Shown here one piece after another: positions 9,776 through 61,478 of a stretch of 64,000 bases of DNA. Made by a program: the position numbers and the translations under genes. Source of the DNA: Diplolepis rosae. Lineage: Eukaryota; Arthropoda; Insecta; Hymenoptera; Diplolepididae. Under the pieces are notes generated by a model. It did no database searches. It was not told the origin of the DNA and was given only the letters and a program-made list of their open reading frames with translations. The DNA lies in contig JAPYXD010000308.1 of the NCBI GenBank assembly GCA_030998225.1, forward strand, positions 9,062,001 through 9,126,000. Direction: 5' to 3'. The stretch's first letter is position 1. Every line of letters begins with the position of its first letter.

Positions 9776-9781
9776 ATCCTT

Positions 9782-13620: not shown

Positions 13621-13622
13621 TT

Positions 13623-39933: not shown

Positions 39934-42480
39934 ATGTCGGGACCCAATCCTAGCGAATCAGGGAAATCACAAATTCAAGAAAATCCTATTACACGCAGTC
40001 AAGTTAAGAAAAATACTGAACTTGCAAAATTCGTGGCACAAAATCAAACTGGTCCCCTTAAACCAAAAAGAATAGTTACTGTGAAGGAAAAGGTAAGTAA
40101 AGATAAGTTTGAAAATTTTTCTAACAAAGACAAAACAAATATCAGTTTTCAATCAGATAATATTTCCTTAGAGAAAACCTTAACGTTTGAACAATTCGAA
40201 TCTCCCGGAACAAGCAATTTATCTGACTCGAATAATTGGCTTAATTCAAATTCAAAAACTAATTCAAGTATTATTTGTGGATCAATTGACCAAGACGAAA
40301 CATTAAAAAACGAAACTACTTATAATTACAACGAAGATATAAGTTTACTTAGTTCAACGATAATTCAAAAAAATACAGTTGAAGAAAGAACTAAAATAAA
40401 TTTATCAGAAAAAGCTCTTACACGCCAAACAATTTTAAGTAATCACGATAGCGACGATAATAGTACCGACAACGAACAAATGGAGCAAATTGTTCACAAC
40501 AATCCTGAAGAAAACGTTAATCCAATTATAAACAACGAAATGGTCCTACTTAGTAATCAACAAGTATTCTTACGCGACGCGTTAGAAGTAGTACCCTTAT
40601 TTGATGGAACTAACATTCCATTATCACATTTTATTGAAGGATGTTATGAGGCAAAGGCAATGCTGCCAACGCCCGCAGCTCAAGAACATTTATCAGGAGA
40701 TGCGATAAAATTTATATTTGGATCGACTTATAAAAATATCGAGGAATTAATTGAAAAACTCAAAAGAGTATACGCCCCAGCAAAAAGTGTGTATCAGTTA
40801 CAAGCAGAATTAGGAAATTCCTATATGTGGGAAAAAGAGAACGTACTTTCCTATGCAGCTAGAATTAAGGAGATTGCCGACAAAATCGAAGACGCTCAAA
40901 GACTCAACAATAATGGACAAGTAGATACTACCATCAAACGGAACCTTGAAAGAGACGTTATTAAATGCTTTATTCGCGGTCTGCGTACTGAATTAGAAAT
41001 TCGAGTAAAAACAAAGGAAACATTTAAAGAAGTTTTCAATGACACAATCAACGTAGAAAGAGATTTGGTAGCATCTTCCTCACTACGGAGAAATAAAAAC
41101 TCAGGTTATTTAAAAATGGATGATTCTATAAATATTAGAAATAATAAAAGAACTCGATTCAATGTTGCACGAGATAACAATATAAATTGTATAATATGCA
41201 AAAAAAACCGGGTCATGTTGCTGAAAGTTGTTATCATTTAACTAAAGCACAAGAAGCAGTTTCTAAAGAACAAAACCTTAATTTTCTTATGCAAAATCAA
41301 CAGCTTAGTAATAATCAGCGACAACGAGATAATATTTACAATAATTCTGCAAGAAATAATTACCGGAATAACCATTTTTTAGGAAACAGAAATAACAATT
41401 ATGATAATAATATCTTTGCACTAAACAATTATCCGAATAAAAATTTTTTAAGGAACAGGAACAACAATTACAATAACTTTTTAAGTAACAGAAATAATTA
41501 TCCTAACAGCAATAGATTCCATAATTACAATAATAATAATTTTTCGAGAAACAGAAATAATGATAATAGACAAGAAAATCTAGATCACAACAGGTATGCA
41601 AATCACAGACAATTTTTAAATCAAAATAGACAACGTGAGATGCGAAATCAGCAATTAAGTAGACCAAATCAAAATTATCCACAAAAATCAGAAGTTATAT
41701 GCAACTACCCTAGCGAACTGGCTGAACGATAGCTTTACGCTGTAGCGTAACATTATCGTAACATTATCGTAAAGTTATCGTAAAGTAGCATTATAACTCA
41801 TGAATGAGGCAAAATAAATATTCAAAATGTTTTTATCCTTATTCTACGTTAAAAATAACGTTAACTGGTAATTGAAATATGCAATAATTTTATTTATTTA
41901 CGCTAAAAATTAAAAAAATATAATACCTGTCATTGAAGGCAGTGCAGTGGTTCACCTTTTGTGGAACTTCTCCGTAAAAGTTGACGATTGGTTGGAGTGA
42001 GACACAACTATACTTTCATCTCACTCTAACAAATAGTCAATCCTGACGGTGAAGACATGTAAAGTGATGAGCCACTGCACTGCCTTCAATGATAGGTATT
42101 ATATTTTTTTAATTTTTAGCGTAAACAAATAAAATTATTGCACATTTCAATTACCAGTTGACGTTATTTTCAACGTAGAATAAGGATAAAAACATTTTGA
42201 ATGTTTATTTTGCCTCATTCATGAGTTATAATGCTACTTTACGATAACTTTACGATAATTTTACGATAATGTTGCGCTACAGCGTAAAGCTATCGTTCAG
42301 CCAGTTCGCTAGGGTATTGTAAAAAACCAGGACATATAATAACAAATTGTAATTTTAGATTAAATAAACAGCAATCGCAAAATTCGGAAAACTCAAACGC
42401 TCTCCCCAGTACGGATGCACTGAGGAAAGCATAAAGCACGAACAAGAAGCATCCACTTGTAACGATCAACCAGCTATAAA
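39934..42480 (+). pseudogene. gag: Gag of element 4: capsid plus nucleocapsid with two broken zinc knuckles
   Basis: The ORF from ATG 39934 runs 435 codons: a Ser/Asn-rich head, then capsid from about residue 215 (VVPLFDGTNIPLSHFIEG) to about 395. A first knuckle (Cys pair at about 41188-41199) is broken by an indel in an A-run. The frame continues at 41187-41700 as an Asn/Arg-rich nucleocapsid with many RNNNYxN repeats. A second knuckle is split exactly by the MITE 41708-42314, leaving its first Cys before the insertion and the remaining Cys-His-Cys after it. Stops follow in the linker towards protease. In intact elements Gag packages the RNA. Confidence 0.88.
41708..42314. mobile_element. 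Hairpin MITE with TA target duplication (copy 1)
   Basis: 607 bp. Ends CCCTAGCGAACTGGCTGAACG and complement, flanked by TA (41706-41707 and 42315-42316). The whole element is nearly palindromic, with a short centre near 42000. Subterminal ACGATA-TTTACG words repeat. Removing it with one TA would leave the gag frame unshifted at that point, confirming the TA target. Probably mobilised by a Tc1/mariner-type transposase. Confidence 0.92.
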
Positions 42481-42826
42481 GATAAGCGTTTCGAAACCAA
42501 GTACAATTCCATCGATAATGATATGCGCAGAAGGCCTTCAAAGCCCTGCTCGCATGATGATAGATACCGGTGCTGGTCGGAATTTGATTAAACAAAATTC
42601 CGTAATTCCTAATTTGCCAATAGATGAAAAAATAGTGTTAAAACTTACAGGAGTAAATAATTTACCACTTTTTACAATGGGACAAGTACAAATAAACACT
42701 CTAGGATATCCAACAATATTGAATATAGTTCCTAATGAAGTTCCAATAGATGAAGACGGAGTTCTAGGTTCAGAATTTTTTAGAGAAAATAAAGTCAATA
42801 TAAATTATGTATCAAAATGTCTATAA
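42480..42826 (+). pseudogene. pol: Retroviral-type aspartic protease of element 4
   Basis: The open segment contains the active-site motif MMIDTGAGRNLI and the flap/C-terminal GVLGSEFF, as in Ty3/Gypsy protease of about 100 residues. It stops at 42824-42826 before the pre-RT region, which resumes at 42909. It would cleave the Gag-Pol polyprotein. Confidence 0.85.
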
Positions 42827-42908
42827 ATACAAAAGAAACTGTATCCATTTGAATCAACACAGATATTAACAATTCCAGCTAGAACAGTAACAACATTTTA
42901 TATTCCAA

Positions 42909-43293
42909 TTGAAAATACTGAAAATACCAGTTATTACTTTAGAAGCCTTTGAAGAAAGAGATTTTCAAAATGTAACAAGACAATCAAGCAATTTAAAAAA
43001 CTTAAGTTTTGACGATTTATCTAAAAAAATTCTGAATCCCTTCTTAAAAACCGACAATTTTTTCGACAATCCATGCAAATTTTTCAACATAACAGATGAA
43101 GAAAGAATAGAATGCATCAAAAAACTTCTTCGTTTGGATCATTTGAATCAAGACGAATACGAACATGTAGAAAGATTAATTATTAACAGTGAAAACAGAT
43201 TTCAAATCCCAGGAGAACCACTTGAAGCTATTATCGTTTTGCAACATTCGATTCCAACTACAGATGATTCTCCAATTTTTTCAAGACAATACA
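42909..43293 (+). pseudogene. pol: Pre-RT linker of Pol, element 4
   Basis: Open frame including DEERIECIKKLLRLDHLNQD and HSIPTTDDSPIFSRQY, the typical run-in to Gypsy RT. It ends where a mariner-derived fragment begins at 43294; the frame then runs on into that fragment to a stop at 43331. Confidence 0.8.
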
Positions 43294-43478
43294 CAGTGTG
43301 TCCCAAAAATAACCGAACTTTTTGGATATAGAATAAGATAAACATTATATTATCTTTGAAAGTTCTTATTAATGCAAAATAGGTTCCATTAGACTCAATA
43401 CAACGTTTGGAACAATCAACCAGCACATGCAAAGATTTTTTTAAGTCATTTATAAGAATGTTTGTAACCAGTTTGGAT
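43294..43478 (-). mobile_element. Mariner-type 3' end fragment replacing the RT fingers
   Basis: About 185 bp starting with CAGTGTGTCCCAAAAATAAC, which resembles a Tc1/mariner terminal repeat. On the minus strand it reads a transposase C-terminus-like segment (KRCIESNGTYF). RT residues that should lie between SRQY and WIVPKK are missing here, so the insertion came with a deletion. Confidence 0.65.
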
Positions 43479-43479
43479 T

Positions 43480-44736
43480 GTTCCTAAGAAAACAGACTCT
43501 AAAGGTATAATAAAACGGCGAATGGTTCTTGACTCCGGAAAACTTAATGAAAAAACAATTAGAGATTCTTACCCACTACCTAACATAAACGATATACTCG
43601 ATTCACTCGGATCTGCCAGATATTTTTCAGTATTCGATTTAGCTACTGGTTTTCACCATATAAAAATGGACCCAAAAGACTCTCATAAAACCGCATTTTC
43701 TACACCTCACGGTCATTACGAATTCGATAGGATGCCTTTCGGTTTAAAAACTGCACCAGCCACATTTCAGAGATTAATGGATTTAACATTAACTGGACTA
43801 ATCAGAACAGAAATTTTTGTATATCTTGATGACATAGTTATATATGCAAATACTCTAGACGAGCACGAAATTAAATTTAACAATTTAGCAGAAAGACTTA
43901 GAAAAGCAAATCTTCACTTCCAACCAGACAAATGCGAATTTTCACGGCCCGAAGTAGGATATTCAGGTCATATAATTGATAAGAATGGAGTACGTTCAGA
44001 TCCAAAAAAGATAATAGCTGTAAAAAACTTTCCAGTCCCAAAAACACAGAGAAATGTTAAACAATTTTTAGGCTTAGCAGGATATTATAGACGATTTATT
44101 GATGGATTTTCAAAAATTGCAAGTCCTTTAAATCAACTTCTGAAAAAAGATATACCTTTTAATTGCACAGAAAAACAACAAGCAGCTTTCAATATTTTAA
44201 ACGCAAAATTATGTGAAGAATCTCTTTTACAACGAACCGATTTTTCTCAACCCTTTGTTCTCACAACAGATGCCTCAGGATATGCAATAGGTGGTATATT
44301 ATCACAAGGCAAAATAGGTAAAGATAAGCCAATAGCATATGCTTCACGTAGTCTAAGTGATACTGAGAAAAAATATGATACATATGAAAAAGAAGCTCTT
44401 GCTATAATATTTTGTGTAACTTATTTTCGTCCTTATTTGTATGGAAGAAAATTTACTTAAGTGACTGATCACAAACCTCTACTTTGGTTTCAAAATTCTA
44501 AAGACCCTTGTTCACGAGTTTCACGTTGGAGACTAAAACTCGCAGAATATGATTTTGATGTAATTTACAAAGCAGGAAAAATGAATGTAAATGCAGACGC
44601 TCTCTCAAGAAACCCCATTGATGATGACAAAGAGAAATCAAAATATTTACAATTTGATGACAATGATACTTTTATGACTTCTCAAGAAAAAATGTTTTCC
44701 AAGAAAACTTTTACAAGAAAAAAACAAGAAAACTAA
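43480..44736 (+). pseudogene. pol: Reverse transcriptase and RNase H of element 4
   Basis: Reads WIVPKK, then FSVFDLATGFHH, PATFQRLMDL and the active-site YLDDIVIYA, followed by the thumb and connection. RNase H shows TTDASGYAIGG, YEKEALAIIF, TDHKPLLW and NADALSRNP, the full acidic set of Ty3-type RNase H. A stop (TAA 44458-44460) splits it before TDHKPL. The fingers are partly lost (see the mariner fragment). Confidence 0.92.
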
Positions 44737-44938
44737 AAATGAGGTAAGACCTTCAAAACGAAGAAACTTGAATACAGAAATCGTACCAAACGACGTAGAT
44801 CGTTTTGGCGAAATTTGAGAAGCCCAAATATTAAATATTGACTCAAAATTTCCAGAATATTTCCAGGAATTTCTTAGTGAAGAATCATTTAGTGAGATTA
44901 GTGAAAATATTTTAAAATACACAAATTTATTCAAAAAT

Positions 44939-45660
44939 ATGGCTTCAAGACTTATTTTTATGACAATATTTTTATTAAGTCCAATGTTTTCCAAAAAATA
45001 CGAAAATTTATCATGGAAAACTATAACTACAAGAGCTCAAAAGAGAAAAGAGCAAGTAAAAGCAAAAAATTTGAATCGAAATGAAACTCAAGAAAAATTA
45101 GACGAAAATTTTTCTTCTAAACCTCTTGTGAAAAAACCACGAGGTAGGCCAAGAAAAAATCTACTTACAAATTTGAAAAATATTCCCTTGCAAACAAAAA
45201 GAAAGAGAGGTAGACCAAGAAAACAAATATATGAAGATGAATTACCAGAAATAAATATGCAAAAGGGAAGCCGAACAAAAGTAGAATCAGATTCTGACTC
45301 TGATCCTGATCATTCAGATTATTTAAAACAAACTCAAGCAAGAAACAGAAAAAAGAAGAACATCAAGAATCCAAAAAAATAGGAATGAATTCGAAAGCGA
45401 AGAAAGTGAAAATTATTTTTCAACCTCAGAAGATGAAATCAACGACATTGAAACCTCACACGAAGGAAATGATGGAGAAAATTATGAAGAAAATTTGGAA
45501 GAGAATTTTGAAGATGATCTTGAAGACAATTTCGAAAAGAATTTCGAACAGAATTTTGAAGACAATATTCAGGAAAATTTTGAAGAAAATTTTAAAGAAA
45601 ACCAAGAAGAAAACTTGGAAGAAATTGAAGAGCCTTATTTTAATGAAAATTTGAAACTAA
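44939..45660 (+). pseudogene. pol: Pol insert between RNase H and integrase: AT-hooks and acidic repeats
   Basis: One frame (44939-45382) holds two AT-hook-like motifs, KPRGRPRK and KRKRGRPRK. Another frame (about 45385-45660) encodes an acidic repeat tract of EENFEDN-type words; the basic Lys/Ile-rich ORF there is its shadow. A frameshift near 45378 separates the two. AT-hooks bind the DNA minor groove, so the insert could tether integrase to AT-rich chromatin (inference). Element 1 has an analogous insert. Confidence 0.65.
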
Positions 45661-45662
45661 AC

Positions 45663-46879
45663 TGAAGAAATTATCCCAAAAATTTAAATTACGATCAATT
45701 AGTATTTCAAAAACTTCCAGAATTAATCATATACCTTGGGAAGAAGTCAAATCAGTTTTCGATTCAATTTTTTCAAATTCAACTACAAAAATTATAGTTT
45801 GCAATGGAATAACGCAATATCCAACAAAGGAACAACGAACTCATTTAATGGAAGAAGCTCATTCTTCAGCATTAGGAGGCCATGAAGGCGTTACAAAAAC
45901 TTATAGCCGAATTCGCCAAAAACTTTTTTGGGAAAATATGAAAGTAGACATTCAAAAATGTATTCAAGGCTGTTTACAATGCCAAATAAAAAAATTAGTT
46001 CCGCTTAAAACTAAAAATCCTATGGTTATTACTGATACACCCACTACTGCCTTCGAAAAAATATCAATGGATATTGTTGGTCCACTACCAGAAACAAAGT
46101 CTGAAAATTTGTATATTCTTACAAAACAAGATAATTTTACAAAATACTCTTTAGCAATACCTCTTCCTAATCACCAAGCTAATACGATAGCAGATGCTTT
46201 CGTGAAAAAATTTATTTGCATATTTGGATCACAGAAAGGAGTACTTACTGACCAAGGCAGAGATTTTTTAAGTAATTTATTAAAAAGATTGGCAAAAAGT
46301 TTTAGAATTAAACAATTTCGTACCACAGCTTTTCATCCTCAATCAAACGGGTCATTAGAACGTTCACATCATGTTTTAGGAGAATATCTCAAACAATTTG
46401 TTGCAAAAAATTCATTATGGGATGATTGGCTTGAATTAACAATGTTCTCGTATAATACTAGTGTACACGAAGGCACAAAATGCACACCCTATGAATTGGT
46501 TTTTGGTAAACTAGCTCGTGAACCTTCCAGCGAACCTTTATCACAACAAGAAAAATTACAAACATATCACGATTATTTAATTAATTTCGTAACACAACTA
46601 CATGAAATGCGAACACGAGCAAGAGAGAATCTTATTTCAGCAAAAGAAAAATCGAAATTATATTATGATAAAAAAATAAATCCTTTAGAAGTGGAAATTG
46701 GAGAAAACGTATTGTTATTGAAAGGAGGTAAAATTAAAAAACTTGATAGCCATTATACAGGGCCTTATGAAATATTGGAAGGGTTAGGAAAAGGGAATGT
46801 CAAAATATGCTATAAAGGCAAACCTACTGTAGTTCACATTAATAGACTGAAACGCTCACATGTGCAAATGCAAAATTAA
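45663..46879 (+). CDS. pol: Integrase of element 4, apparently intact
   Basis: Open from about 45663 (first ATG 45848). The zinc domain is HSSALGGHEG with CLQC. The catalytic core has Asp in SMDIVGP (about 46070), Asp in LTDQGRDF (about 46250) and Glu in GSLERSHH (about 46350), correctly spaced. A C-terminal GPYEIL barrel and HINRLKR end complete it. Three catalytic residues and all zinc ligands are present. It belongs to the Ty3/Gypsy integrases that insert the cDNA. No chromodomain follows. It is the best-preserved enzyme of this element. Confidence 0.92.
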
Positions 46880-48437
46880 TAAAAATGAAACAAAATATCT
46901 TTACTTGAATTATAAAAAAAATATATATATATATATATATGCATATACAATTTAAATAAAGATATAAAAATTTTATTTTGTTGATAAATAGTAAAAATAT
47001 AAAAAAGAAAATTTTTGTTTTGAAAATATGCATTTTATATATAAAATAATATATATATTATAAGGGGTGACCTCCGCTGAAACGTCAGAAATAAAAAGCA
47101 TTTAACAAAGCGGACCCGAGGATTCGGGATTACCCTCGATGTCACCGGCGTTACTAAGGCGGCTAAAATAATGAGCGCCTGGCGTCTCTCGACGCCATAT
47201 TTATAAAAGCAACAACACTGAAAATAAAAGCTTAGCATGCAAAAAAAAAGGCGAAGCCAAGCAGGGTTTCCGGCTAGGGTGATTATGGATTCGGGAGTCC
47301 GGATCAGGCAAGGTTTTAGGTCAGGAAAGGAATCTTAACCTAAACATAGAAGCTCTTGTGCAAATAAAATAATAAAATTAATTAAGCAAATAAAACTAAG
47401 CTACAATTTATTTAGTTATCGGGCAAGGCCCAGGCTCGATACAAATTCAAAAGAGCTGACAACAAAAATTATCAAAATATCGTGGCCGACATGGCTCGTG
47501 GTACAAGAAAAGAGGCAGAGCTCTAAGAGAGCCTGAGAGCCACGGTTAAAAAAAGAATAAGAATTTTTAATACAGCCCGGAATAGAGTCTCACAGACTTA
47601 CCGAGGACCTGGCCGCGATCTCCCGCCTAACTTCGTCCAGGTTAAAATCTCCGGTGGCGTCCATTAGGAGATAAAAGAATAATTTTTCCTCTTTGGCTGT
47701 TTGCCACTCGGATCGCAACGACAGAATAAAGCTGCGCGCCAAAGGTGTCGCGCAGTTTTATTACATCAGCTGGAAAGGCTAGCGCACGCGCGTGAAGCTC
47801 AGGTTTGCGCGGGCGACTCGTCTTGTGAGGACGACGGCGCCAGGCAACCAATGAGCTGAAGCGTCTATCGGTCAGCTTGCCCCATTGGCTTAAAACGTAG
47901 AGGGGTGCGTTTAAACTACGTTGAGTTTGTACTGCACAACACAGCAGTTACAAATAGACGAGGCTAATATACAATGTATAATACAATTTCTAATTGTTCC
48001 AACCCGTCATGCCCTCTCTATATTAATTATAATAATAATGGTGCGACGGTGTTGGAAACCATGGGCTGCAGCACGTGGTCGTTTCAGATGCCATGCCTGC
48101 TGGGTGATGCCCTCTGTGGCTTGCCTGTGAACCCCTCTGCGTGCGATGGTAACACAGCGATCTCCTTGGCGGCGCCTTTCAAGCTGGTGTTTTTCAATGT
48201 AACAAATAAAAAAGAAAACGGCCAGAAAGACAATAAAAAAATAAAAGAATTTTATGAGCAGCTCTCAGACTATCCCTGACAGTTTTGAGTTTTAATTAAA
48301 AGGTGGCTTGGGCTCGATCCTGTCGTTGCCGGTCGAGGTAAAAAAAAGTTAACGTAATTTACCACGTTACAATATATATGTATATATAAAACAAAATAAA
48401 AATGAAATTTCAGACATAACATATTATTCTAGATATA
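46880..48437. other. Spacer with AT microsatellite and a GC-richer insertion
   Basis: An (AT)n tract is at about 46919-46940. From about 47040 to 48340 the base composition becomes GC-richer than both sides, with CCAAT-type words near 47848 and 47880, and may be a separate insertion. On the minus strand a short start exon is possible (see next entry). Confidence 0.45.
47602..47664 (-). CDS. Possible first coding exon (21 codons) with strong splice donor
   Basis: ATG at 47664 opens 21 codons (DATGDFNLDEVRREIAAR core) ending at a consensus donor, TCG|GTAAGT. CCAAT-type promoter words lie upstream on the same strand, a pyrimidine-rich acceptor-like CTCTCAG downstream near 47540, and AATAAA near 47400. 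It may be the 5' exon of a host or transposon gene. The rest is not identified. Confidence 0.3.
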
Positions 48438-48719
48438 ATGGAAAAAATTCATCGCAAACGCATAGACAATCTCATTGAAATAGTTCTCTGTTTTATCGAC
48501 ATGGTAGCTCTCTGGTCATATTTAATTCAAACTGGAATTTTTGACCAAGACGACTGTAATATCCCCACATGGAACAGAAACCTGAACAATCTAGATATAA
48601 TAAAAGACATTTTTTCATCAATTAAAACAAGAGGACCGGACGCATATAAAAATTTAATTCTCAGTTTACGGCTATCAAATCACATTGTCATAGACGACAT
48701 GTTGGATATAAAGAACTAG
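48438..48719 (+). CDS. CARD-domain small protein (93 aa)
   Basis: The whole protein looks like a caspase-recruitment (death-fold) domain: the start MEKIHRKRIDNL, a hydrophobic helix with WSYLIQTGIFDQDD, then DIIKDIFSSIKTRGPDAYKN and a terminal LSNHIVIDDML helix. The TRGPDAY turn is the best signature. No other domain is attached, so it resembles the CARD-only proteins known as regulators of apoptosome-type assemblies. It is intact and AT-rich like the neighbouring viral-type genes, 140 bp upstream of a chuvirus-like glycoprotein gene. A role in modulating host cell death is inference; a captured host CARD exon is the alternative. Confidence 0.65.
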   Translation: MEKIHRKRIDNLIEIVLCFIDMVALWSYLIQTGIFDQDDCNIPTWNRNLNNLDIIKDIFSSIKTRGPDAYKNLILSLRLSNHIVIDDMLDIKN

Positions 48720-48859
48720 GAACGCAAAATATAAAAAGTAAATCAATAATTTTAAAAATATACATATGTAACGATAAAACATTTTTCTATTCTTATATTA
48801 CAAAGCAAGCTGCTAATTGGAACCTCCTTTTTTCAGAGACGGGATTACGAGGCTTCCTT

Positions 48860-51434
48860 TTGGCACTGCTCACTTGCAACTTCAACTATATCACAACAGT
48901 CTACGCCATCATAGGATTCGATTGCGGTTCAAATCAATCAAATATTACGAAATTATCTTTAATAGAGATAGGAGAATTTGATCTACCTCGATCTCAAGTA
49001 CATGTTGAAAGAACTTATATACAACTTTTACAATTAACTGGATTTTCTAATACAAAAGTAATAGAATGCAAAATAGAAATTCAACGCGCCATCTCTCATT
49101 GTGCTGTGCATTCTCACAATTCCATAGTTGCAAATGGCCACAGTGAATATATACATGATGTTACACGAGATCAATGTAATCAAATGCACACAATAGGGAC
49201 ATTTTAAGTAACCCCTTCTCTTCAGATATCAAAGTTAAAAGTAAAAGAAACTTCATTTCATAGCGTTACTTTAGCAGGTTCTGTAACACCTAACGGAGAC
49301 TGTACTGGTACACAATTTTCTGATCAATATGGAACATAGAATAATGACGTAGTCCAAGCAATATTCATAATAACTTTACAAGAACATTACGCGACTATTC
49401 ATTTAAATTCAAATAAAATTCATTTAGGATCTGGAATAATATGCACACTTTCAGACACATTTTGTACAGACAAATTGATCAAGAAAATAATGTAATTTTT
49501 TCTATTCTTATTATTACAGGGCGTATATTTAAAATTGTAGTAATAAAATTAATTGAACCTAAAATTGATGATACCCCACCTAAATGCAATGAAAAAATTA
49601 CTAAATCAACAGAAACCCCTTCATGCCCAATATTTAAAGATAATGGAGGATACACAGTTTACTCTGTCCCTGCTCCCTGATCAATAAATATACTTACAAT
49701 TAATAAAATAAAAGAAAGGAACTAATAACCAAAATCTTATATTATTTAATCGAGGAAAAGATATATCTGGAGAAGATAATATTAATGGAATCAAAATGGA
49801 CAAACATTCTGGGATACATTACCTATTGACGAATGTAATTTTAACAAATATGAAATTATTTATAAAGGACCAGCAAATAAAACATATGACAACACGAAAG
49901 ACAATTCTGAAACCTTTTATTCTTTAACTACTTAAGATATAACCTTTGTATTGGCTGCAAAAACAAGAAAACCCGTTTGTAATTACGTTTTAATACAAAC
50001 AGAACATCCAAAATTATTAATTTTTTAAACCAGGCCTGGAACCCAATCACCAGACAAATGTGCATATCATTTAATGAAAGGCTCAGGATATGTGTCAGTA
50101 ATTGCAGGAGAAGTAGTAAATATCGTAAAATGTATACCGGTTGAAGTAAAATATCGCAAAACTGAAGAATGTTATCTACAACTACCAATATTTAGAGGTA
50201 ATCAACCCTTTTTTCTTTCTCCACGAACTCATATATTAACAAAATCCGGTATACAAACAAATTGCAATTCTTTCCTTCCACTAATATACCTTTTTGGGGA
50301 AACCTGGTACAAATTACTTCCAAATCCTGTCGAATCCATAGCACCAACTATAGTTAAACCTCTCACAAAAGCAACCTGGAAATACACAAATAAAATTGCT
50401 GAATCCGCATGGGGTAGATTTTGGATAATTTTTTTAAGTTTTGGAACTACCCTAGTGAACTGGCTGAACGGTAGCTTTACGCTGTACCGTAAAGCTATCG
50501 TGAAGTAGCATTATAACTCATGAATGAGGAAAAATAAACATTCAAAATGTTTTTATCCTTATTCTAAGTTGAAAATAACGTTAACTGGTAATTGAAATAT
50601 GCAATAATTTTATTTATTTACGCTAAAAATTGAAAAAAAAAACATAATACCTGGCATTCAAGGCAGTGCAGTGGTTCATCACTTTCCATGTTTTCACCGT
50701 CAGGACTGAATATTTGTTAGAGTGACATGAAAGTACAGTTGTGTCTCACTCCAACCAATGGTCAACTTTAACGGAGAAGTTCCACAAAAGGTGAACCACT
50801 GCACTGCCTTCAATGACAGGTATTATGTTTTTTTAAATTTTTAGCGTAAATAAATAAAATTATTGCATATTTCAATTAGCAGTTAACGTTATTTTCAACA
50901 TAGAATAAGGATGAAAACATTTTGAATGTTTATTTTGCCTTATTCATGAGTTATAATGCTACTTTACGATAGCTTTACGATAGCTTTACGGTACAGCGTA
51001 AAGCTACCGTTCAGCCGGTTCGCTAGGGTACTAGTGCAGGCCTAATTGGATCAATTATAATAATTAGAGGGAAACAATTGATAGCGGATACCATTATTCA
51101 TGGATATGCACTACACACATTATTTGAATGGTCTCTCCATCTACTAGGCGCCTTCTGGGATTCGGTCACTAACCTTTTATTACACTTAGGTACACATCGA
51201 CCTTCTGGACCTCCTGCTGAAGGCCATCAACTTCTGCCAACAGCTTCAGCGCCACAAAGCTCGAAAGAGGCACCTAAAAGTTCATCGTATAACGCAAATA
51301 ACACTTCAGGTAAAGATCACAATAATACAAACACAACTCTTTATCCTCACTCTGAACTAAAAGAAGAACTTAGTAGAATACACTACCCTATCCAAATCTT
51401 ACATCTTCAGAATTTCGCCTGTTCCTTTTACTAA
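48860..51434 (+). pseudogene. Chuvirus-like glycoprotein gene, broken by stops and a MITE
   Basis: Open pieces at 48860-49207, 49441-49680, 50074-50508 and 51078-51434 together read as one envelope glycoprotein. Features: a hydrophobic start, then IIGFDCGSNQSNIT, a Cys-rich N-terminal region with YIQLLQLTGF and SHCAVHSH, later VSVIAGEVVNIVKC and FFLSPRTHIL, and a membrane-associated end (FWIIFLSFGTT) interrupted by the MITE at 50450. This layout matches glycoproteins of chuviruses, a negative-strand RNA virus family whose glycoprotein genes have been captured by insect LTR elements. Stops lie near 49207, 49338 and 49935, among others. Family recognition is from memory of its general pattern, so moderate confidence. 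Confidence 0.6.
50450..51028. mobile_element. Hairpin MITE with TA target duplication (copy 2)
   Basis: 579 bp, same family as 41708-42314, with TA at 50448-50449 and 51029-51030. Nearly full-length palindrome. It splits the glycoprotein gene within its membrane-proximal part. Confidence 0.92.
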
Positions 51435-51559
51435 TTTATTGAACACACTCATTCGACAAAGAGGAGATCCACCCCTAAATTACGAAATACTCATTGAACA
51501 AACCATTAATAACGAGTATTTATTTCATGTAAATTTACAATAAAAAAATTACATAATTA

Positions 51560-52949
51560 TGAGTAGTGGCAAAGATAAAGATAATGTAAAAAAAGGGTAA
51601 CACAGAATTTATATCAAACCTTAACTAATGAATCGGATAAAACCTATCAAAATGACCAACCAAATTTTATTAGTAAAAATTGCAAGAAATTAAACGAAAT
51701 TTGCACTCAAAACAAATTTTCATATCCAAAATATACGGTATTACGAGTCAAAACTTCATCAGAAGATTCAGCATACATAGGAATTTGTTTCATTAACAAC
51801 ATTAAACAAATAGGAATAGCAAACTCGATAAAAAGAGCTACGGATTTTGCAGCCATAAAAGTTATTAATTCTCTCTCGCATAAAGACGAGAAATGTGGAC
51901 TAAGTTTGATAAACTCAATAGAACATTTGCATGTAACAATTCAAGAATCATCTATAAACGATCCAAAACCATCAACAAGTAGCCAAATAACAAAAACTAT
52001 TACTTCAAATAACAATCGCGTTAAAAATACAAATTCATATCAATTGAAAACAAATAATAATCATACTGCATCATCTTTCTCTACGAAAAGCTTTAAAAAA
52101 TGTTTTAAATGCGGATATAGACCTCCCAACCAGTACAATAAGTTCTGATATAAAAATTCCATACCAATTCAGGAAATCAACTGCAATGGAGCATTACTAC
52201 GACGAGCCTACACACGTATCATGTTACTCAAAAAAGAAATACAGAACAGACTCCATGGGATTTTTAAATCATGTAGAAATTTTAAGAAATTTCACGATAA
52301 AATATGGACTGCCGTTACCGCAATATACGGTGTATCCTGATCCAAATTCGAAAACAAACTCATTTTTACTTGCACAAATTAATATAAATGAACATTTTGT
52401 TATACAAGCCGGCCCTACAAGTGAATTAGAAGAAAACAGAGCAGCTTTAAAATTACTATTACTACTAATGAGATCACACGATCTCTGCGACGAAAAATTT
52501 TATAATAATGATGATAAAAAAATGCAAAAAACCAAAAATCAAAGTATTCCAACCGATCCAAGACCAAAATTGATACCTTGGGAAAATTCCTGTAGATTTT
52601 GTAACACTCAAATCCATGCTACAAAAGAGTGCCTTCTGGGAAGCCTAATGAATTTCCTTAATCAACTAGCATCCAGAGTGTATTCAATTTTAATTCCACC
52701 CCTTTTCTCCAAAGCAGAAAAATACTTCATAGATTCACAATTTTCTCATTCTTCAGGGATTCTTTTTTAACCAATTTCAAAAGTTCGTCTTTTTCTGAAA
52801 AATATCATTTTATATCTTATATCGATATCTTTCAGCCAGACGTACTTAAATACAAAATAATAGATTTCTCACATAAATTATATGAATATTGCATACTTTC
52901 AAATATTGCCAATAATTGTAATTTATACGATCATCAGACAACTTGATTT
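51560..52949 (+). pseudogene. Protein with two dsRNA-binding-like domains and CCHC-type zinc motifs, frameshifted
   Basis: A start (ATG 51560, MSSGKDKD) and several frame changes lead into a first dsRBD-like segment (51681-51890: KKLNEICTQNKFSYPKYTV ... SIKRATDFAAIKVINSL), then a Ser/Asn linker and CFKCGYR. A second dsRBD-like segment (52264-52478) has HVEILRNFTIKYGLPLPQY, AGPTSE and RAALKLLLLL. A CX2CX4HX4C motif, CRFCNTQIHATKEC, lies at about 52590-52632. The L-x-E-x2 / P-x-Y / AA-K pattern is that of dsRBDs. dsRBD proteins encoded by insect viruses often bind viral dsRNA away from the RNAi machinery; here that is inference. At least three frameshifts or stops leave it non-functional as read. 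Confidence 0.6.
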
Positions 52950-54350
52950 TATAGAACAACGAATCAACTATTTTCTTGAAGAAATATTATTTATATCTAG
53001 ACAAGCTCGTAATATCATGAATATTTCTAAAACTAATGATCAATTCTTGCAACAGGTACAAAAAGTACTTTCAAAATTGAGAATGAGACAGGAAACCTCC
53101 CTTTACTGGCCCAAAGAAAATTTATTTCTACTTCCAAATCTATTTTTCCAAAAAGTTACAAATCTTCCTTCAAAACTTGGCAACATTATGACCTACAAAA
53201 AATGGCATGATTCTCAAAAAGATCCAAATATTCACCTATATCGAATATTAGCAGAAAATTGGCTTAAAGACCTCCATGCAATTTCTAAATCCTTTCTTTT
53301 GCTCCTTGACCAACTCACAGAAGCCATTACCCATGCCGCAACTAATTTATGGCACCCTATGTTACTTCCTGATACCTTCTTAGACTTCAAATCTAACAAA
53401 GAAGACCCACACCTTTTAACATCCCTTTTTTCTATGATCCTTCCATTATCTAAAATAAAATACTTCTTATTCGATAAGTACTTGATTTTTATTATGACTA
53501 TACCAATCCAGTCTGCTGAAAGAATTTCAATTGTTTAAACTACACCCAATTCCAATACATCTCGATTTTAATACTGACGTAATTTCCTCTATTTACATAA
53601 AACCTCAAAATTCTTATCTCGCTATTTCTTCAAATAACCAATCATACTTTACAACAAATGAAAATTTCCTCAATGCATGTTATCAAAATGGATTCCATAC
53701 ATTTTGTCACCCACCAAGATCTATATCTAATATCGATAACAATCCTATTTGTGAAACATCAATGTTTCTAAATTCTCAACCATACAAGTATGAAATATTA
53801 ATCAGTTTTAGTGAATATCCCCTTCTAACGCCATTGCAATTTCATCATGGATGGCTATACTCAACAAATTTCCCCCGACAAATTTTTTTATCATGTCTAA
53901 AAAACTGTAAGACCTTAATCACACTCCAAAGAATAGGAATTTTGCAAACAGTCAGGTTGCAATCTAGATTCATCAACTCCATATTACCATCTCCAAAACC
54001 AGTTGAATATAATGGATAATTCAATTCTAGTCAGCAAATCAACCACATCACTTGCTATAATTTCACCATTTTTATATAATACTTCTATTCAAGAGCCTCA
54101 CTTACTAAAAAAGGTATTACTTCTTCTTCAGCAAAAAGAAGACATGCCATTATCAATCTTCGAAAACTATGTCTTTATCCTTACAAAATATGCAAACATT
54201 CAAAAAATCATTCCATCTATTTTTATTTCTAGTGCACATGAAATAACATTAGCACTAATTATTATCACTTTACTTATGATTACAATTTTAGGATTAATAC
54301 TATTGAAAATTCAAAAAATATCTAAAAAAACAAAACGCCAACACGTATAG
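52882..54350 (+). pseudogene. env: F-type envelope remnant
   Basis: Three overlapping open pieces (52882-53538, 53531-54019, 54003-54350). The first includes LLLLDQLTEAITHAATNLWHPMLLP, like the heptad and HP-L region of insect F-type envelopes, and then YLIFIMTIP. The second holds KLHPIPIHL with paired cysteines. The third ends with a membrane anchor (LALIIITLLMITILGLILL) and a short basic tail. The cleavage site and fusion peptide are not visible and the start is uncertain because an upstream frame also reads family-like sequence into 52949. This is a different fusion-protein family from the glycoprotein at 48860-51434. Confidence 0.6.
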
Positions 54351-54677
54351 AACTTATACAAAAAACTCCTTTAAGCTCAGTGACAAAACCTTTACTGACC
54401 GACTTGACATTCACCTTTCGACCTTTCCTTTATTCTATCTTCCTTTTACCCCCTTTTTTTTAAAGTCACCTTAGAAATTTTTTTCAGATACAAGCATATT
54501 CTATCCTTCCTTTTTTTTTAAATCACCTGCATGATAGTTTAAAGTTCTATACCGTCAGAAGGACAGTTTTTGTACCCACGCCTTTAATGTTTCTAACTAA
54601 AGAAAAAACAAACTGTAAAATAAAAGTTGTTTTTCTGACGAAAAGTAAAATACTTTTAGAAAAATCTTTTACCTTGC

Positions 54678-55467
54678 ATGATTAGAAAATGTATACAAAG
54701 TTATTATTCAACCTCCTCATCAGACCTTAATAGACCCTTGACATTGTTTTTATATTGTAATCACCAAACCACAAAAATATATTGTCAATTCTGTTTCGAG
54801 AGATTAGTTCAGGAATCTGAAAATAACTGTGAGTTTTTTACTTCATGGCATTCCATTTGTATTATTACATTATATTACTACGGTTGTCAAGAACTATTAA
54901 TTAATCCGTGACAAAGAGCAGCTAATTGTAACGAATGCACCGAAACATATTTAAATAACAAATTATATATTAGTCAAGAAAACGAAGTTCAGGTAGAAAA
55001 TATCCCTGCATGATCCATACGTATCTACCTTCCACGCATGTACTCACCCATGAAAATTTTTGTAAATTTCAATAGATTCCTCAATACTAAAAAATTGTAA
55101 AATTTTTCAAATATTTCAAATTCCTTAAATATTGTAAATTTCTCCTTGGAAAAATGCTGCCCCAAGAAATCGGAACAATCGAAGCAGAAGAAGTTCGAGC
55201 AAGCGAGCAGGATGTTCAGCCGTATTTTGAACATCATTTATGATCGCAATACTGCTGCACAACCCTTATCAAAAATTTCTATATGAACGTCCTCGAAAAA
55301 ATCTTGTTTGCGAGGATTGTTACATGACAAAACTTAGCTTCTTTGAGGCCGAATTAATATTGCGTGTCCGAATAGATCACATAGTCACTAAAGACTTAAA
55401 TTGCAGATTTATGCGTAACTTGTGCCGAACGTGTAATTTATTTATGCCAACAAGAAGCATTATATAA
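54678..55467 (+). pseudogene. Cysteine-rich ORFs, possibly one broken zinc-binding protein
   Basis: ORFs at 54678-54911 and 55240-55467 carry CXXC-type pairs: KIYCQFCFERL, and further on VCEDCYMTKL and LCRTCNLFM. A further NCNECTETY lies between them in another frame. The repeated Cys pairs could bind zinc. No family recognised, and the stops between them suggest decay. 54351-54677 before it is pyrimidine-rich, with no gene. Confidence 0.35.
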
Positions 55468-55570
55468 CGACGTCGATTCCGAAGTATCCACCATTATTTA
55501 TAATAACAACGAATAAAATAATAAATCAAACCATATTTTTCTATTAATCTTTTTTCTAAATATAAACAAT

Positions 55571-57322
55571 ATTGAAACATTTCGACTCTTGGAATTTTAA
55601 CTTGATTAATATTTAATTCTTTTTAACACGAATTTTTGCCTATCTGTGCCAAAAGTTTCGCTTTTCAAGTCAGAGTTTAAATTTTATATCTACAATTTTT
55701 AATTAAAACGATTTTCTAAATTTTTATGTGGCAATTTTGCCCTATCTTAGGTCGAAATGCTCCTTTAAAGTCTACGTGTGGGTCACACGAAGGGTGAAAA
55801 TTTCGCGAAGTGGAATTCTTAATTTAAGGAGCAAGAATACCGAATAAAACTCACGATATTCAAGTTTTTTGAGAGAGCAAAGCAAAATGGGCGCGTCCTC
55901 GTGACTATAGTCCGTGATTCCAATCTTGAGATTTCGAATCTAAGAGCATAGGGAAATTTTAATTAATTTTCATTTTGAATAATTTCGCGCAAACGCGCCA
56001 CGAACAAAGACACGTTCTAATTTTGGGGAATTGTCCCTATAGCTGAAAATAAAGGGTTTTGATCAATGGTTTTTTATTCGCAGCATAATTAATTCTTTTC
56101 CATTTCTCTTCTTGGCCAAACCAACTCCTCCCTTCTATTCAAAGTTAATTTTAATAAAAATAAGCATCAGGTGTGAACAGGGCACTGCAAAGTTTGTGAC
56201 ACAGGCCTGCCACTTATCATCATTTGCTTCCTCCCGGAAAACATTCAATATTTATATTTTACGCGCGCAACTCGGCAGGCTTCACCCAGTGGAAAATAAT
56301 AAAATCATGAAAGGAATTGAAAAAGAAAGGAGTTACCATGCAAGCGAAGGTCCCCGTGGGGATTAGACACTTGCGTGGCGTGGATGTGGAAAAGGAATTT
56401 CAGATGAAGCTCTCCGAGGGGATTCGACACCCAAATTTCCTTGGAATTTTGTTTATTTAATTTTGTTTGAATTCCACGTTCGATGTTTCTCTCGATATGA
56501 GAGTTCACACTACTAGTGGCACGAGTTGAGCTAACCGAGTTGTAAAAAGAGTTTTCTCTTTCCTTTTTAAAACGTAAAAAAATTTTTTTAAAGAAATTCC
56601 CAAGAAAATAAAATTTTAGACACCCAAAAGCATTGATCCCTAACTAGGGGGGGACAGGAGTCATGTGCGAAGAGTTCTCACAAAGATTAGGTGCGTTGAT
56701 GCTACAATGCACCACACCTAATCTCGAGCCTCGATCTATGTCTTCCTTGGATTTTGCGCAAGGCAATAAGTCCTTACCTTATTAGGGTGCGCAAGCGGAC
56801 TGAAAATTTAGGATCCGCAACCAAACATGTTACCTCGGTTTTCCACCTCTTTAATAATTTCCTCCCTTAATTAATATGCGCACGTCTCAATTAGCGACCG
56901 CGATCGAGTCTAATCAATTCAATAAATTAAGAATTTTATACACGGTCTTTTCCCCCTTTTCGCGATGGTTTTAAGGTTGGAAATCGGTATCAGAAGAAAG
57001 ATAATATTCTCGCGATTATGACGATGTTTTTCAGATTTCAAAAAGTCGCATATTTCGTCCCGTGGAAGCGTTTAAAAATTGATGTGCACTCGAAAGCGAA
57101 AACGCCCCGCGCGACGATGACGAGAAAGCCTTTCCCCCATTTCACCTCCCGCTGGCGCGTGCTACTTGCGTGGGTACGTGTTCCTATTGGACAGCGGTGT
57201 GGGCAGGCTTGAACGTCGTGTAACGATTTTTATAATAAAAAGGAAATTTCAATTAATCAACCTCAATTCATTATTGTTAAGTGACTTATATCTATAATTA
57301 CAATTATTCATAATGTTCAATA
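55571..57322. repeat. Large repeat, copy A, first part (R1)
   Basis: Matches 61479-63300 in the same orientation at lower identity in the first half and higher in the second. Shared words include TGGGTCACACGAAGGGTGAA and TAATATGCGC followed by TCAATTAGCGACCGCGATCG. It contains a conserved hairpin (56684-56724) and two copies of an AAG-TCYCCG-GGGATT word near 56346 and 56405. A CCAAT word lies on its minus strand near 57190. ORFs are not conserved between copies. About 100 bp between 55468 and 55571 hold nothing clear. Confidence 0.85.
56684..56724. other. Conserved hairpin, copy A
   Basis: A 10-bp perfect stem AGATTAGGTG / CACCTAATCT encloses a 21-base loop. The same hairpin in copy B has a different stem sequence but the same pairing and nearly the same loop. 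Confidence 0.8.
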
Positions 57323-57340
57323 CTAATAGTGTTTGCTATA

Positions 57341-57423
57341 TGTCAAATTATGCTTATTTTTTCTTGTAAACAGAAAAGGCGTTAATTTATGATCTGAGTA
57401 TATTGTAGACCGTTCGCCTCAGA
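57341..57423 (+). repeat. 5' LTR of the BEL/Pao element, truncated
   Basis: Its 83 bp match 59604-59687 closely up to CGCCTCAGA, where pol sequence begins abruptly. Confidence 0.85.
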
Positions 57424-57429
57424 TTAAAT

Positions 57430-58212
57430 GAATTTATTTCTAATGCTAAAACAGCGATGGAGTTAGGAGGTTTCGACTTGCGAGGGTGGGAGTATAATGG
57501 TAATAACTCTCACAAAAATCAAACTGCAGTTTTAGGAATATTATGGGATAAGCAGCTAGATGTATTGGCTTTGAATACACCGGGTATAGATCAATTGATT
57601 AATGAAAAGGTTACGAAAAGGAGTATTTTATCTATTGCGCACAGAATTTTTGATCCGCTAGGATTTGCATGCCCGGTGGTACTGTGTCCGCGAATATTAT
57701 CACAAGAAACTTGGTCTTTGAAATTATCATGGGACGAAGAAGTCAACGAAGCAATTAAAATTAAATTTCGAAATTGGCTGCTCACTTTAAAAGATTTAAA
57801 TAAATTGAAAATTCCGCGATGTTTTTTAGGAAATATCTCAAAGGATGATGACATTAGTATTCATATGTTTGGTGATGCAAGTAAATCGGCATAAGTGGCC
57901 GTTGTATTTATTCGTATAGAGAACGCTTCGGGTATAAAGGTGCATTTTATGCAAGCTAAAACGCGAGTCGCGCCCGTAAAGAAAGATAAGTCAGATGCCC
58001 GACAAAGTATACCACGGTTAGAATTATTAGCTGCAACCATAGGAGTAAGATTAACGTCTTCTATCTTAAATTCTTTGCAATTAAGAAAAACAAAAATTTA
58101 TTACTGGACAGATTCTACTACGGTTCTAGCGTGGATCCAGAGAGAACCCTTTAAAGATGAAAACGGTATAATTCGCTTAAACACCAAAATCATTTTCCGC
58201 TCCGATACGTAA
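57430..58212 (+). pseudogene. pol: BEL/Pao RT end and RNase H
   Basis: Begins inside RT thumb/connection (LGILWDKQLDVLAL, then RSILSIAHRIFDPLGF, a Pao signature). RNase H follows with FGDASKSA, SIPRLELLAA and YYWTDSTTVLAWIQRE. One stop (57892-57894) lies just after GDASKSA. The region between RNase H and the integrase (about 58160-58228) is frameshifted and shortened. Confidence 0.88.
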
Positions 58213-58227
58213 AATTTTCGCTGTCCG

Positions 58228-59502
58228 ATGATTTTACCCCGCAATAATGAGATAGTAAATTTAATAATAAAAGAAAAGCACGAAAATCTTAAACATGCGG
58301 GTGTCGAAATAACCATGAGCGCTTTAAGAGAAAAGTTTTGGATTTTGGGAGGCCGTAAAGTATTGAAAGCCGTAATTGAAAAATGCATGAATTGTCGTAG
58401 ATTTGATTCGAAACCGTTACAATCTGTTCCCGTAGGTTTACCGCTCAATAGAGTCCGAGATGCAGGTGTCTTTGAAGTGGTAGGCGTAGACTTTGCTGGG
58501 CCAATATACCTGAAGGGAGGTAAGAAGGCATGGATTTGTTTGCTTACCTGCGCTGTATATAGAGCAGTACATTTAGAATTAGTGACCTCATTATCTACCG
58601 CTTCATTTCTAATGGCGCTAAGGCGATACATTGCACGCCGAGGCAGGCCCAGGGTTATATACAGTGACAATGGCACGAACTTCGTAGGTCTAAACAATAT
58701 GTTCGAGCGTCTTGACTTTAAAAAATTGTCTAAAATTCTGGCGACAGAACAGATAGAGTGGAAGTTCAACCCCGCTACTGCAGCCTGGTGGGGTGGTTTT
58801 TGGGAACGACTTATTGGTATTTTAAAACGGTTATTGCGTAGAACTCTTAAAAAATCGTATTTAGATTACGAGGAAATGCTGACGATACTTTTAGATTGCG
58901 AAGCTGTAATTAATTCAAGACCAATAACTTTTATGTCCGATAATAATCATGAAGTTGTACCGTTAACTCCATCTATGTTTTTGCAGGAAGTCAAAGAAAT
59001 AGGCGTTTTAGATTTGGATCGAATAGAAAACTGTCAATTAGATAAACGTTACTCATATCGTCAGAAAATAAAAGAGGAATTACGACAAAGATTTCGTTGT
59101 GAATATTTAGGAGCGTTATTAAATCGATCAAGCAAAGAAAGCAATGTTCAAAAAATATCTGTTGGCGACGTTGTATTTCTCGAAAATGAAAGTGTAAAAC
59201 AACTAGACTGGCCGTTAGCGCGAGTAAAAAATGTAATACTAGGTAAAGATAATAGTGTACGGGTAGTTCGCTTAACTACTGCTACCGGCGAGTTAATTAG
59301 ACCGATACAACGAATATATCCTCTAGAACTTAAATGTAACAATGTTGAATCGCACGAAGACAAATGTTTAACGGAAAAATATAGGAGTGTGAAAGGTCAA
59401 AAGTTGACAGTAGTAAGTGTGTATGATAAGAGGGAAGAACGATGCGCTGTGACGAGAAGTGGTAGAAATGTAGTGAACCCTGATAGACTCACATACTATT
59501 AA
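58228..59502 (+). CDS. pol: BEL/Pao integrase, apparently intact (424 aa)
   Basis: Zinc domain: HENLKHAG with CMNC. Core: Asp in VGVDFAGP (about 58486), Asp in YSDNGTNF (about 58660) and Glu in FWERLIG (about 58800). The C-terminal region (SVGDVVFL, then WPLARV and VRVVRLTTATGELIRPIQRIYPLE) is the typical Pao-integrase tail domain. The stop is close to the PPT. It would join cDNA ends to target DNA. No lesion seen in this segment, in contrast to the upstream pol. The first ATG may not be the true start because Pol is a polyprotein. Confidence 0.92.
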   Translation: MILPRNNEIVNLIIKEKHENLKHAGVEITMSALREKFWILGGRKVLKAVIEKCMNCRRFDSKPLQSVPVGLPLNRVRDAGVFEVVGVDFAGPIYLKGGKKAWICLLTCAVYRAVHLELVTSLSTASFLMALRRYIARRGRPRVIYSDNGTNFVGLNNMFERLDFKKLSKILATEQIEWKFNPATAAWWGGFWERLIGILKRLLRRTLKKSYLDYEEMLTILLDCEAVINSRPITFMSDNNHEVVPLTPSMFLQEVKEIGVLDLDRIENCQLDKRYSYRQKIKEELRQRFRCEYLGALLNRSSKESNVQKISVGDVVFLENESVKQLDWPLARVKNVILGKDNSVRVVRLTTATGELIRPIQRIYPLELKCNNVESHEDKCLTEKYRSVKGQKLTVVSVYDKREERCAVTRSGRNVVNPDRLTYY

Positions 59503-59593
59503 AGTTGTATGCAAAGTGTGAATTTCTATTATTTATATGTTTTTTAATATCTTCTATTTTTAATTTAGATGAAGAGTGCAATCTTCATCTAAA

Positions 59594-59603
59594 TGGGGGA
59601 GGA
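59594..59603 (+). promoter_or_regulatory. Polypurine tract of the BEL/Pao element
   Basis: TGGGGGAGGA directly precedes the 3' LTR TGTCAAA. Confidence 0.85.
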
Positions 59604-60196
59604 TGTCAAATTATGTTTATTTTTTCTTGTAAACGGAAAAGGCGTTAATTTATGATCTGAGTATATTGTAGACCGTTCGCCTCAGAACTTTACATTTTAT
59701 TTTATTTCAGACTTAATATTTTCAGACCAGGTGTTTAGAATTTAGCTATTATTTTAAATCATAAAAATTGTACGTGCGTTTTCCCGAAATAATACTTTCT
59801 GAACTTTTACTAGTATTGTCGTCATAAAGTAATTTACGATACTCTCTCGACACTGCAGACAACCGTAATAAAGTGTATCGGTTGGAAATTAAGAAAAGGT
59901 CCTCCACCATGAGAAAATGCATGAGAAAACAGAGGCAGTAGTTTTAAGAGTAGGGATTTATGAAGGTTTGAAAGAACTCTTGGAGTGCATTTTGGAGTAA
60001 GTGGTTATGTTTTGCAGGCAGTCGATTTTAAGATAGAGTTGAGACTGGACATTTGTCCCTCTTGAATACTCGCGCACTTTTATACGTCCTTTTTTTTAGT
60101 TTTTTAATAAATATATTTTTTGTAATTTAAACTCGAACTTTGATTTTGTGTTCATTTATTCACACTTATATTTAACCCCAGTTCCTTATTAAAACA
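59604..60196 (+). repeat. 3' LTR of the BEL/Pao element
   Basis: 593 bp from TGTCAAATTATG to TTAAAACA. An AATAAA-type word lies near 60107. Confidence 0.85.
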
Positions 60197-60214
60197 CTAA
60201 TAGTGTTTGCTATA

Positions 60215-60834
60215 CAATCATAATTATCTTTATTTATAACATTTTATTATTATAATATTTTATAATGTAATGATTATATTTAATTATAATTGTCGTATTT
60301 GTATGATTATTAATTTTTATTTATTATCTATGATTAACCTTTCCCATGTACATAAATAAATAAGCCTATCGTAGCTAATAAATAATAAAAAATAGAAAAA
60401 ATAACAGCGTGGGATGCCCATCCAGCGATCATGCATTACGCTGCTTGACCCGGGTGATTGGTCGTGTGGCAGCAACCACAGGTTAGTTTGGCGCTCGCTG
60501 AGAATACGAACGAAAATCTCCGTGAAAAGCCGACTGCCTCGTTCTTGCCACATTCACTTCCGCTTTGGAAGTAAATCATTAATTATTGGGCGAATACTCA
60601 ATGAGACATCGCAATTCCTTCGTGCGAGTCTCGTGGGAACCTGCTTGTTCTAAAAATAAGCCCAATTTCGCGGATTTTGCCCCCGTTTCATCGCAAAAGG
60701 CGGATACTTGAGGCTGGGCCGTCTCAACGCCCCCCCCAAACGAAGTGATCCTTTGCTTACAAATGATGAATTCGTTTCTTTGAGCGGCACCGTAATCGTA
60801 CATAAAGTCTTTCTATATAATTTTAAATAAACAA
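60215..60834. repeat. Large repeat, copy A, second part (R2)
   Basis: Matches 63556-64000, with shared stretches such as GGTGATTGGTCGTGTGGCAG and AACCACAGGTTAGT, and a shared CCCGTTTC-TCGCAAAAG end. It is separated from R1 only by the BEL/Pao insertion. The ORFs on either strand (for example 60414-60653) are only roughly kept between copies and have no recognised domain. Confidence 0.85.
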
Positions 60835-61478
60835 TACTTAAATTCTGATAAAAAAAAAGGAAGGATAAAATTAATATAAAAGCGTATACTTTTTTTTCTT
60901 TTTGTGTTTTTCTCTATTTTGTTGTGAAATAATATTTATTAAAATTTTAAAATAAAAAAATATAAGTGGAAAATAATTATTTACTAATTTTTTCTTATTA
61001 TTCGATAATAATCATAAAATTATTATTTTGTTATTTATTATAAAGACCAAAAAAAAGAGAAGATTGGAATTGATAATAGTTTTTCTTACTCTAATTCATA
61101 ATTGTACTTCAAATTTATAATTATGATCATATTAATTATATTAGTATTAATAATGCCATTAATTATTCAAAACTTAAAAAAATATATAAACATGAGAATT
61201 GATGATGGTTTTTCATACCCTCTTATTGTAATCTTGCGATCATTTTATTATTTTCTGGGTTAAAGTTGTAGTAAACCATCTCAACGCCCCCCCCCCCCCA
61301 CCTCCCAGACCATTTCTTCAGTAACCTATAACATATACTTTTCGAGGCGTTACAAACTTAACTTCTTAATCATATTGCCTATTGTACTAAATTTGCGTAA
61401 TTTACACGATTCTTAAATATATCTGCTTAATTATTAACAATAATTGGACTATCCCTTATATCTACGCGTGTACCTACT
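60835..61478. other. AT-rich tail between repeat copies
   Basis: No gene. Contains a C-run (about 61289-61303) after CTCAACG; the same CTCAACG-C-run words occur in R2 near 60724. Confidence 0.5.

Follow-up and report, generated by a model that had tools for sequence, protein, structure and literature searches.

A decayed copy of a probable Gypsy-type retroelement family carrying CARD-like, dsRNA-binding and two unrelated fusion-protein genes

The 64,000-nucleotide stretch of Diplolepis rosae DNA analysed here (contig JAPYXD010000308.1, positions 9,062,001 to 9,126,000; referred to as the window) contains a Gypsy-type retroelement pol followed by a cassette of further genes. The question was whether one mobile element had carried them all or several insertions had come to lie side by side. 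Pfam searches were run on the separate open pieces of the window copy, and they confirmed the arrangement proposed in an initial annotation: a CARD-like protein, a chuvirus-type glycoprotein, double-stranded RNA-binding domains (dsRBDs) accompanied by a CCHC knuckle, and an F-type envelope, all on the + strand and 3' of a Gypsy gag-pol. The gene order is gag, pol, CARD, class III glycoprotein, dsRBD open reading frame (ORF) 1, dsRBD ORF 2 and F-type envelope. We consider it very likely that the locus is a single copy, now decayed, from a family of envelope-carrying Gypsy-type retroelements present in multiple copies, and that this family carried the CARD gene, both dsRBD ORFs, the glycoprotein and F. 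The annotation had suggested a retroelement or a locus derived from an RNA virus; a retroelement with acquired genes is what the fusion proteins described below support, and the locus is that of a Gypsy element and not of an RNA virus. Its description of the genes as broken holds for most of them, but not for CARD, whose reading frame is uninterrupted between its ATG and its stop codon (48438-48719).

The evidence for a single element came from relatives of the window genes. Searches with dsRBD ORF 1, the CARD ORF and dsRBD ORF 2 returned 52, 45 and 50 relatives, respectively, amounting to 145 different proteins, all of which (145/145) matched scored segments of the window. Links between genes were scored by script, which flagged 25 of the 145 proteins, and were then verified frame by frame. 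Two proteins, P0092 and P0097, join the integrase end of pol to CARD, and their breakpoints in pol differ (46816 and 46759, respectively); the pol portion of P0097 shares 67% identity with this pol and 44% with that of the other Gypsy element in the window. In P0072 and P0094, CARD runs on into the beginning of the glycoprotein gene, though out of the glycoprotein frame, and P0139 joins the glycoprotein (Monjiviricetes_fusion, E = 2.4e-39, profile positions 434-562) to dsRBD ORF 2. Residues of both dsRBD ORFs were found in 9 relatives; here 11 had been flagged, from which P0116 and P0117 (ORF 2 frame only) and P0022 (ORF 1 frame only) were dropped, and P0040 was added. Finally, four relatives (P0011, P0128, P0134 and P0140) pass from a dsRBD into F in the F frame. 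For ORF 2 plus F the script had flagged 9 proteins. Of these, P0103, P0105 and P0113 were set aside, since the frame of ORF 2 by itself extends past the point where F begins; nor were P0118, P0121 and P0135 counted, which reach or may reach F DNA in another frame. The other three were kept, their F residues being assigned partly by eye, and P0011 was added. These fusion proteins are remnants of deletions in other copies of the family. Such ordered fusions among neighbouring genes therefore argue that one Gypsy-type family carried all the modules.

The pol gene (42368-46879, +) is broken and shows protease-like, reverse transcriptase (RT), RNase H and integrase domains, with strong matches to RVT_1 (4.8e-31), RT_RNaseH_2 (2.3e-33), Integrase_H2C2 (1.5e-18) and rve (4.4e-11) and two weak protease matches (0.0066 and 0.03) under the cut-off. 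This domain order, with the protease taken at that strength, is the one found in errantivirus-like elements. Between RNase H and integrase, the segment 44819-45665 (+) contains a 12-nt tandem repeat and an AT-hook match of 17.5 bits against a cut-off of 17.4. The gag region (39931-41732, +), named by its position, is frameshifted and consists of two overlapping open frames 5' of pol; a CCHC-like knuckle divided by the frameshift was recognised by eye, and Pfam gave no match on the piece 39931-41238. Further 5', directly after the possible end of a 5' long terminal repeat (LTR), a stretch that resembles a primer-binding site was tentatively marked by eye at 38439-38456 (+); it may resemble the 3' end of a tRNA-Gly. 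No 3' LTR to match was found.

The chuvirus-type (class III) fusion glycoprotein (48837-51434, +) is interrupted by frameshifts, by stop codons and by an insert. Monjiviricetes_fusion (PF24664) was matched at 48650-49204 (2.9e-33), 50029-50505 (9.6e-43) and 51027-51431 (1.4e-19), and as these three pieces fall at successive profile positions (6-120, 353-470 and 551-650), they represent one broken glycoprotein gene, by which most of the length of the profile is matched. No in-frame methionine was seen ahead of the domain in the glycoprotein frame. Within the gene sits a hairpin miniature inverted-repeat transposable element (MITE) with inverted arms and, by eye, TA flanks (50450-51028, no strand assigned); relative P0139 has no insert at this site, and a second copy of the MITE lies at 41706-42316, between gag and pol. 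Ahead of the glycoprotein, comparison with relatives revealed a candidate intron of 99 nt with GT-AG ends (48738-48836, +): as judged from the proteins, precisely this stretch is missing from P0072, and P0094 reads through it. The exact loss of a GT-AG stretch would fit splicing, as known for errantivirus env; the P0072 junction enters a frame other than that of the glycoprotein. For F no sign of splicing was seen.

The F-type envelope (52648-54350, +), which lies 3' of pol on the same strand and is linked to the same element through the fusion proteins, is broken by frameshifts. Baculo_F was matched at 53498-54016 (1.9e-10), and the N-terminal part was recognised through relative P0142, which maps to 52648-53214 and matches Baculo_F positions 17-127 at 0.0036, under the cut-off. 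Immediately 3' of F, the element's C-rich bias carries on along the + strand over 54351-55500 (GC skew -0.18), with open frames that contain paired CxxC motifs. Pfam gave nothing above the cut-off in this stretch, which may be a further decayed gene belonging to the element.

The two ORFs between the fusion proteins carry three dsRBDs. ORF 1 (51411-52148, +), whose start overlaps the end of the glycoprotein, is broken in the window and has two of them; the Pfam family dsrm matched 51585-52145 at 3.1e-5, and the intact relative P0002 (245 residues) matched it at 5.7e-11 over two stretches. ORF 2 (52186-52647, +), whose frame continues here into F, holds the third dsRBD followed by a CCHC knuckle (CX2CX4HX4C, 52591-52632). 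The single dsRBD/zinc protein of the initial annotation is in fact two ORFs. Pfam found no match on ORF 2 in the window copy; dsrm was matched by 18 of 27 aligned ORF 2 members (the window copy and 26 of the 50 relatives), at best with 9.4e-5. An intact relative, P0098, has 194 residues, and in P0115, which is 61% identical to it in the alignment, both length and knuckle are kept, which suggests constraint. The structure model of ORF 2 is weak (predicted local distance difference test, pLDDT, of 51), yet it shows a helix, three strands and a helix, and the first 23 Foldseek matches were all dsRBD-bearing chains, with a best E-value of 0.0074 and none at or below 0.001. The third dsRBD may bind protein rather than RNA, because its second helix lacks the usual basic run (judged by eye).

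The composition of the cassette suggests how such an element could have worked. It would have been an infectious, envelope-carrying Gypsy-type element, with its downstream genes expressed from spliced subgenomic RNAs and its particles entering cells through one or both fusion proteins. The CARD-only protein would interfere with CARD-dependent caspase activation, and the dsRBD proteins would bind dsRNA or Dicer complexes and thereby blunt RNA silencing. That the accessory genes served counter-defence against RNA silencing and apoptosis is the reading we prefer, with about an even chance of being right; it follows from domain identity and a weak similarity to Dicer partners only. As in the Dicer-partner family there are several dsRBDs in tandem, two in ORF 1 and one in ORF 2, and Loquacious, R2D2 and TARBP2 rank first among solved structures: by sequence, the best matches were Loquacious (0.0077) and R2D2 (0.012) for P0002 and TARBP2 (0.0068) for P0098. 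In contrast to Dicer partners, the dsRBDs of the element are spread over two ORFs and are followed by the CCHC knuckle. The low strength of the Dicer-partner matches (E-values of 0.007 to 0.05) speaks against the proposed role, as do PDB profile searches with the dsRBD alignments A2 and A3, which returned nothing. The fuller proposal, of a retrovirus lineage of insects or other arthropods in which chuvirus-type and F-type fusion proteins were combined with a CARD-only protein and two proteins with three Dicer-partner-like dsRBDs as an anti-apoptosis and anti-silencing kit, is put forward tentatively, as falling somewhat short of an even chance.

A single element could also have used its dsRBD/CCHC proteins structurally, as genome packaging or nucleocapsid cofactors and not as silencing suppressors. 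This would agree with the CX2CX4HX4C knuckle, which follows the third dsRBD in the window copy and in 12 of the 50 relatives (those that reach that far or keep the knuckle). Such CCHC knuckles in retroviral nucleocapsids bind RNA. However, gag apparently has a knuckle of its own, and the best structure matches of the dsRBDs, weak as they are, are the Dicer partners. In view of the CCHC knuckle we regard a structural role in packaging as a serious alternative, though less likely than not.

Whether the small intact ORF ahead of the glycoprotein (48438-48719, +; 93 codons) encodes a CARD had to be judged largely on its relatives. CARD was its sole Pfam match in the window copy, and the profile was matched by 25 of 32 aligned members (the window copy and 31 of the 45 relatives), at best with 1.3e-5; relative P0079 clears the cut-off at 25.5 bits. 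Exactly 93 residues were found in 23 of the 45 relatives, which is no more than suggestive, because the entries of the database are open frames. From these comparisons, the ORF is probably a CARD protein. Evidence to the contrary is that the match in the window copy (48420-48716, E = 0.021) scores 15.3 bits where the curated cut-off is 23.9, that the AlphaFold model is poor (pLDDT 61) with no CARD among its structure matches, and that a PDB profile search with the CARD alignment A1 gave designed repeat proteins only. These results would also agree with a small helical protein of another function, the CARD match then being a coincidence of helix pattern. We find this unlikely, as CARD is the one family matched by most members, the next ones being matched by 3 of the 32 with E-values above 0.05, and as P0079 exceeds the cut-off. 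Profile checks for CARD, dsRBD and chuvirus glycoprotein had been proposed in the initial annotation, and similarity was found for all three families, that of CARD and dsRBD being firmer in the relatives.

With regard to the unity of the element, three observations weigh against it. First, an LTR pair enclosing gag-pol and the cassette ORFs, which the initial annotation had proposed to look for, was sought within the window and none was found; the window copy may be truncated. Second, no direct fusion of the glycoprotein to dsRBD ORF 1 occurs among the 145 relatives, which makes this the weakest junction; the boundary is supported by the glycoprotein-ORF 2 fusion P0139 and by the overlap between the glycoprotein gene and ORF 1 in the window. 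Third, the relatives come from short contigs, and single fusions could be assembly errors; such errors could account for a single fusion, but hardly for the entire ordered set. No relative was returned from a viral contig collection, where the queries were pieces from dsRBD, F, integrase and glycoprotein as well as alignments A1 and A3, or from a genome contig collection queried with dsRBD and RT pieces.

A Gypsy element, a chuvirus-derived endogenous element and an F-type element could, in principle, have been inserted independently and be adjacent by chance. The cassette lies in a window crowded with mobile elements, where nested insertions are frequent (as seen with the MITE, the segment of high GC content at 47060-48372 and a BEL-type element), and the lack of an LTR pair around the whole cassette would agree with such a history. 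Nevertheless, other copies fuse neighbouring genes in the same order and with differing breakpoints, and on these fusion proteins a chance neighbourhood was rejected as highly improbable. The initial annotation had named two outcomes that would speak against its own reading, namely ORFs belonging to several independent insertions and a lack of CARD or dsRBD similarity, and neither was observed. That the cassette is instead a domesticated host locus of retroelement origin, as the host-protein nature of CARD and dsRBD domains and the intact CARD ORF might suggest, is scarcely credible in view of the many variant copies, often deletion-fused to pol or env parts in the manner of a mobile family, and of the broken state of most genes in the window copy.

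The GC-rich segment (47060-48372, no strand assigned) between pol and CARD has a GC content of 0.448, compared with 0.312 for pol and 0.325 for 48373-51434. It is absent from the pol-CARD fusions P0092 and P0097, both of which are deletions, and it is probably a later foreign insertion, a solo LTR or similar. Its assignment as the 3' LTR of gag-pol was not favoured because a counterpart was sought 5' of gag, where the end of the 5' LTR is expected, and none was found.

Parts of this gene arrangement have precedents. According to PMC12992720, the endogenous retroviruses of insects have a gag-pol-env structure, with errantivirus env expressed from a spliced subgenomic transcript. In the present element, as in errantiviruses (gypsy/gypsy clade), an F-type envelope comes after a Gypsy-type pol on the same strand, and its candidate intron ahead of the glycoprotein can be compared with their spliced env transcript. 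It differs from them in that no LTR pair was found within the window and in that four further genes precede F, whereas the known errantiviruses are described there as having only env-F as a third ORF. PMC13172572 mentions Gypsy elements that carry type III fusion glycoproteins; these share the Gypsy pol and the class III glycoprotein, to which the present element adds the F-type envelope, the CARD gene and the dsRBD ORFs. The type III glycoprotein of Gypsy elements and the F-type env of errantiviruses are each known separately. Anakin (PMC10084718 and PMC12440569), which belongs to BEL/Pao and has a glycoprotein derived from a chuvirus, is likewise a retroelement with a captured glycoprotein of this type, but the present pol is Gypsy-type and has no BEL-type domain in the scanned pieces, DUF5641 being found in the downstream BEL-type element. 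The 2023 survey in PMC10084718 reports that fragments of Gypsy elements lie next to glycoproteins of chuvirus type in Hymenoptera as well as other orders, and no clear capture by Gypsy. The fusion proteins would show such a capture and thus bear on this open point, if the host belongs to the Hymenoptera.

Viral CARD-only proteins, too, contain little beyond a CARD: that of grouper iridovirus has 91 residues, against 93 here, and an anti-apoptotic effect with interference in caspase activation is reported for it (PMC4457926). This is a virus of fish, and the likeness to the CARD ORF is one of size and description. In the titles and abstract beginnings searched, which exclude the Chary and Hayashi 2025 survey of envelope-carrying retrotransposons, no Gypsy element was reported to carry CARD or dsRBD genes, or to combine the two fusion proteins, and the novelty of the combination is provisional. 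If an element family has CARD and dsRBD genes, the idea that such elements carry accessory genes for counter-defence could be put to a direct test. An element with two unrelated fusion proteins also prompts the question of whether it had more than one way into cells. The element may record how retrovirus-like elements countered their host.

Several other mobile elements were recognised in the window. A probable BEL-type element (55570-63297, +) has a pol with DUF5641 and integrase matches and is flanked by diverged direct repeats (55570-55881/61475-61783, 73%; 56768-57219/62845-63297, 81%). The second Gypsy-type element (6858-14267, -) contains an open F-type envelope frame of 653 codons (Baculo_F, 2.3e-33) and a pol frame of 730 codons with an extra RNase H domain (PF00075, 3.4e-33); neither CARD nor dsRBD was found in these two long frames. 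A third F-type envelope fragment (22276-22731, -; Baculo_F, 5.2e-8) is adjoined at 22848-23261 by a frame that looks integrase-like by eye. A direct repeat of 787 nt (24574-25332 and 31559-32345; 91%), with its copies about 7 kb apart, is a possible LTR pair of another element. Finally, two inverted repeats with short loops, 5315-5817/5999-6500 (503 nt, 95%) and 19657-20277/20699-21319 (621 nt, 97%), are possibly foldback elements.

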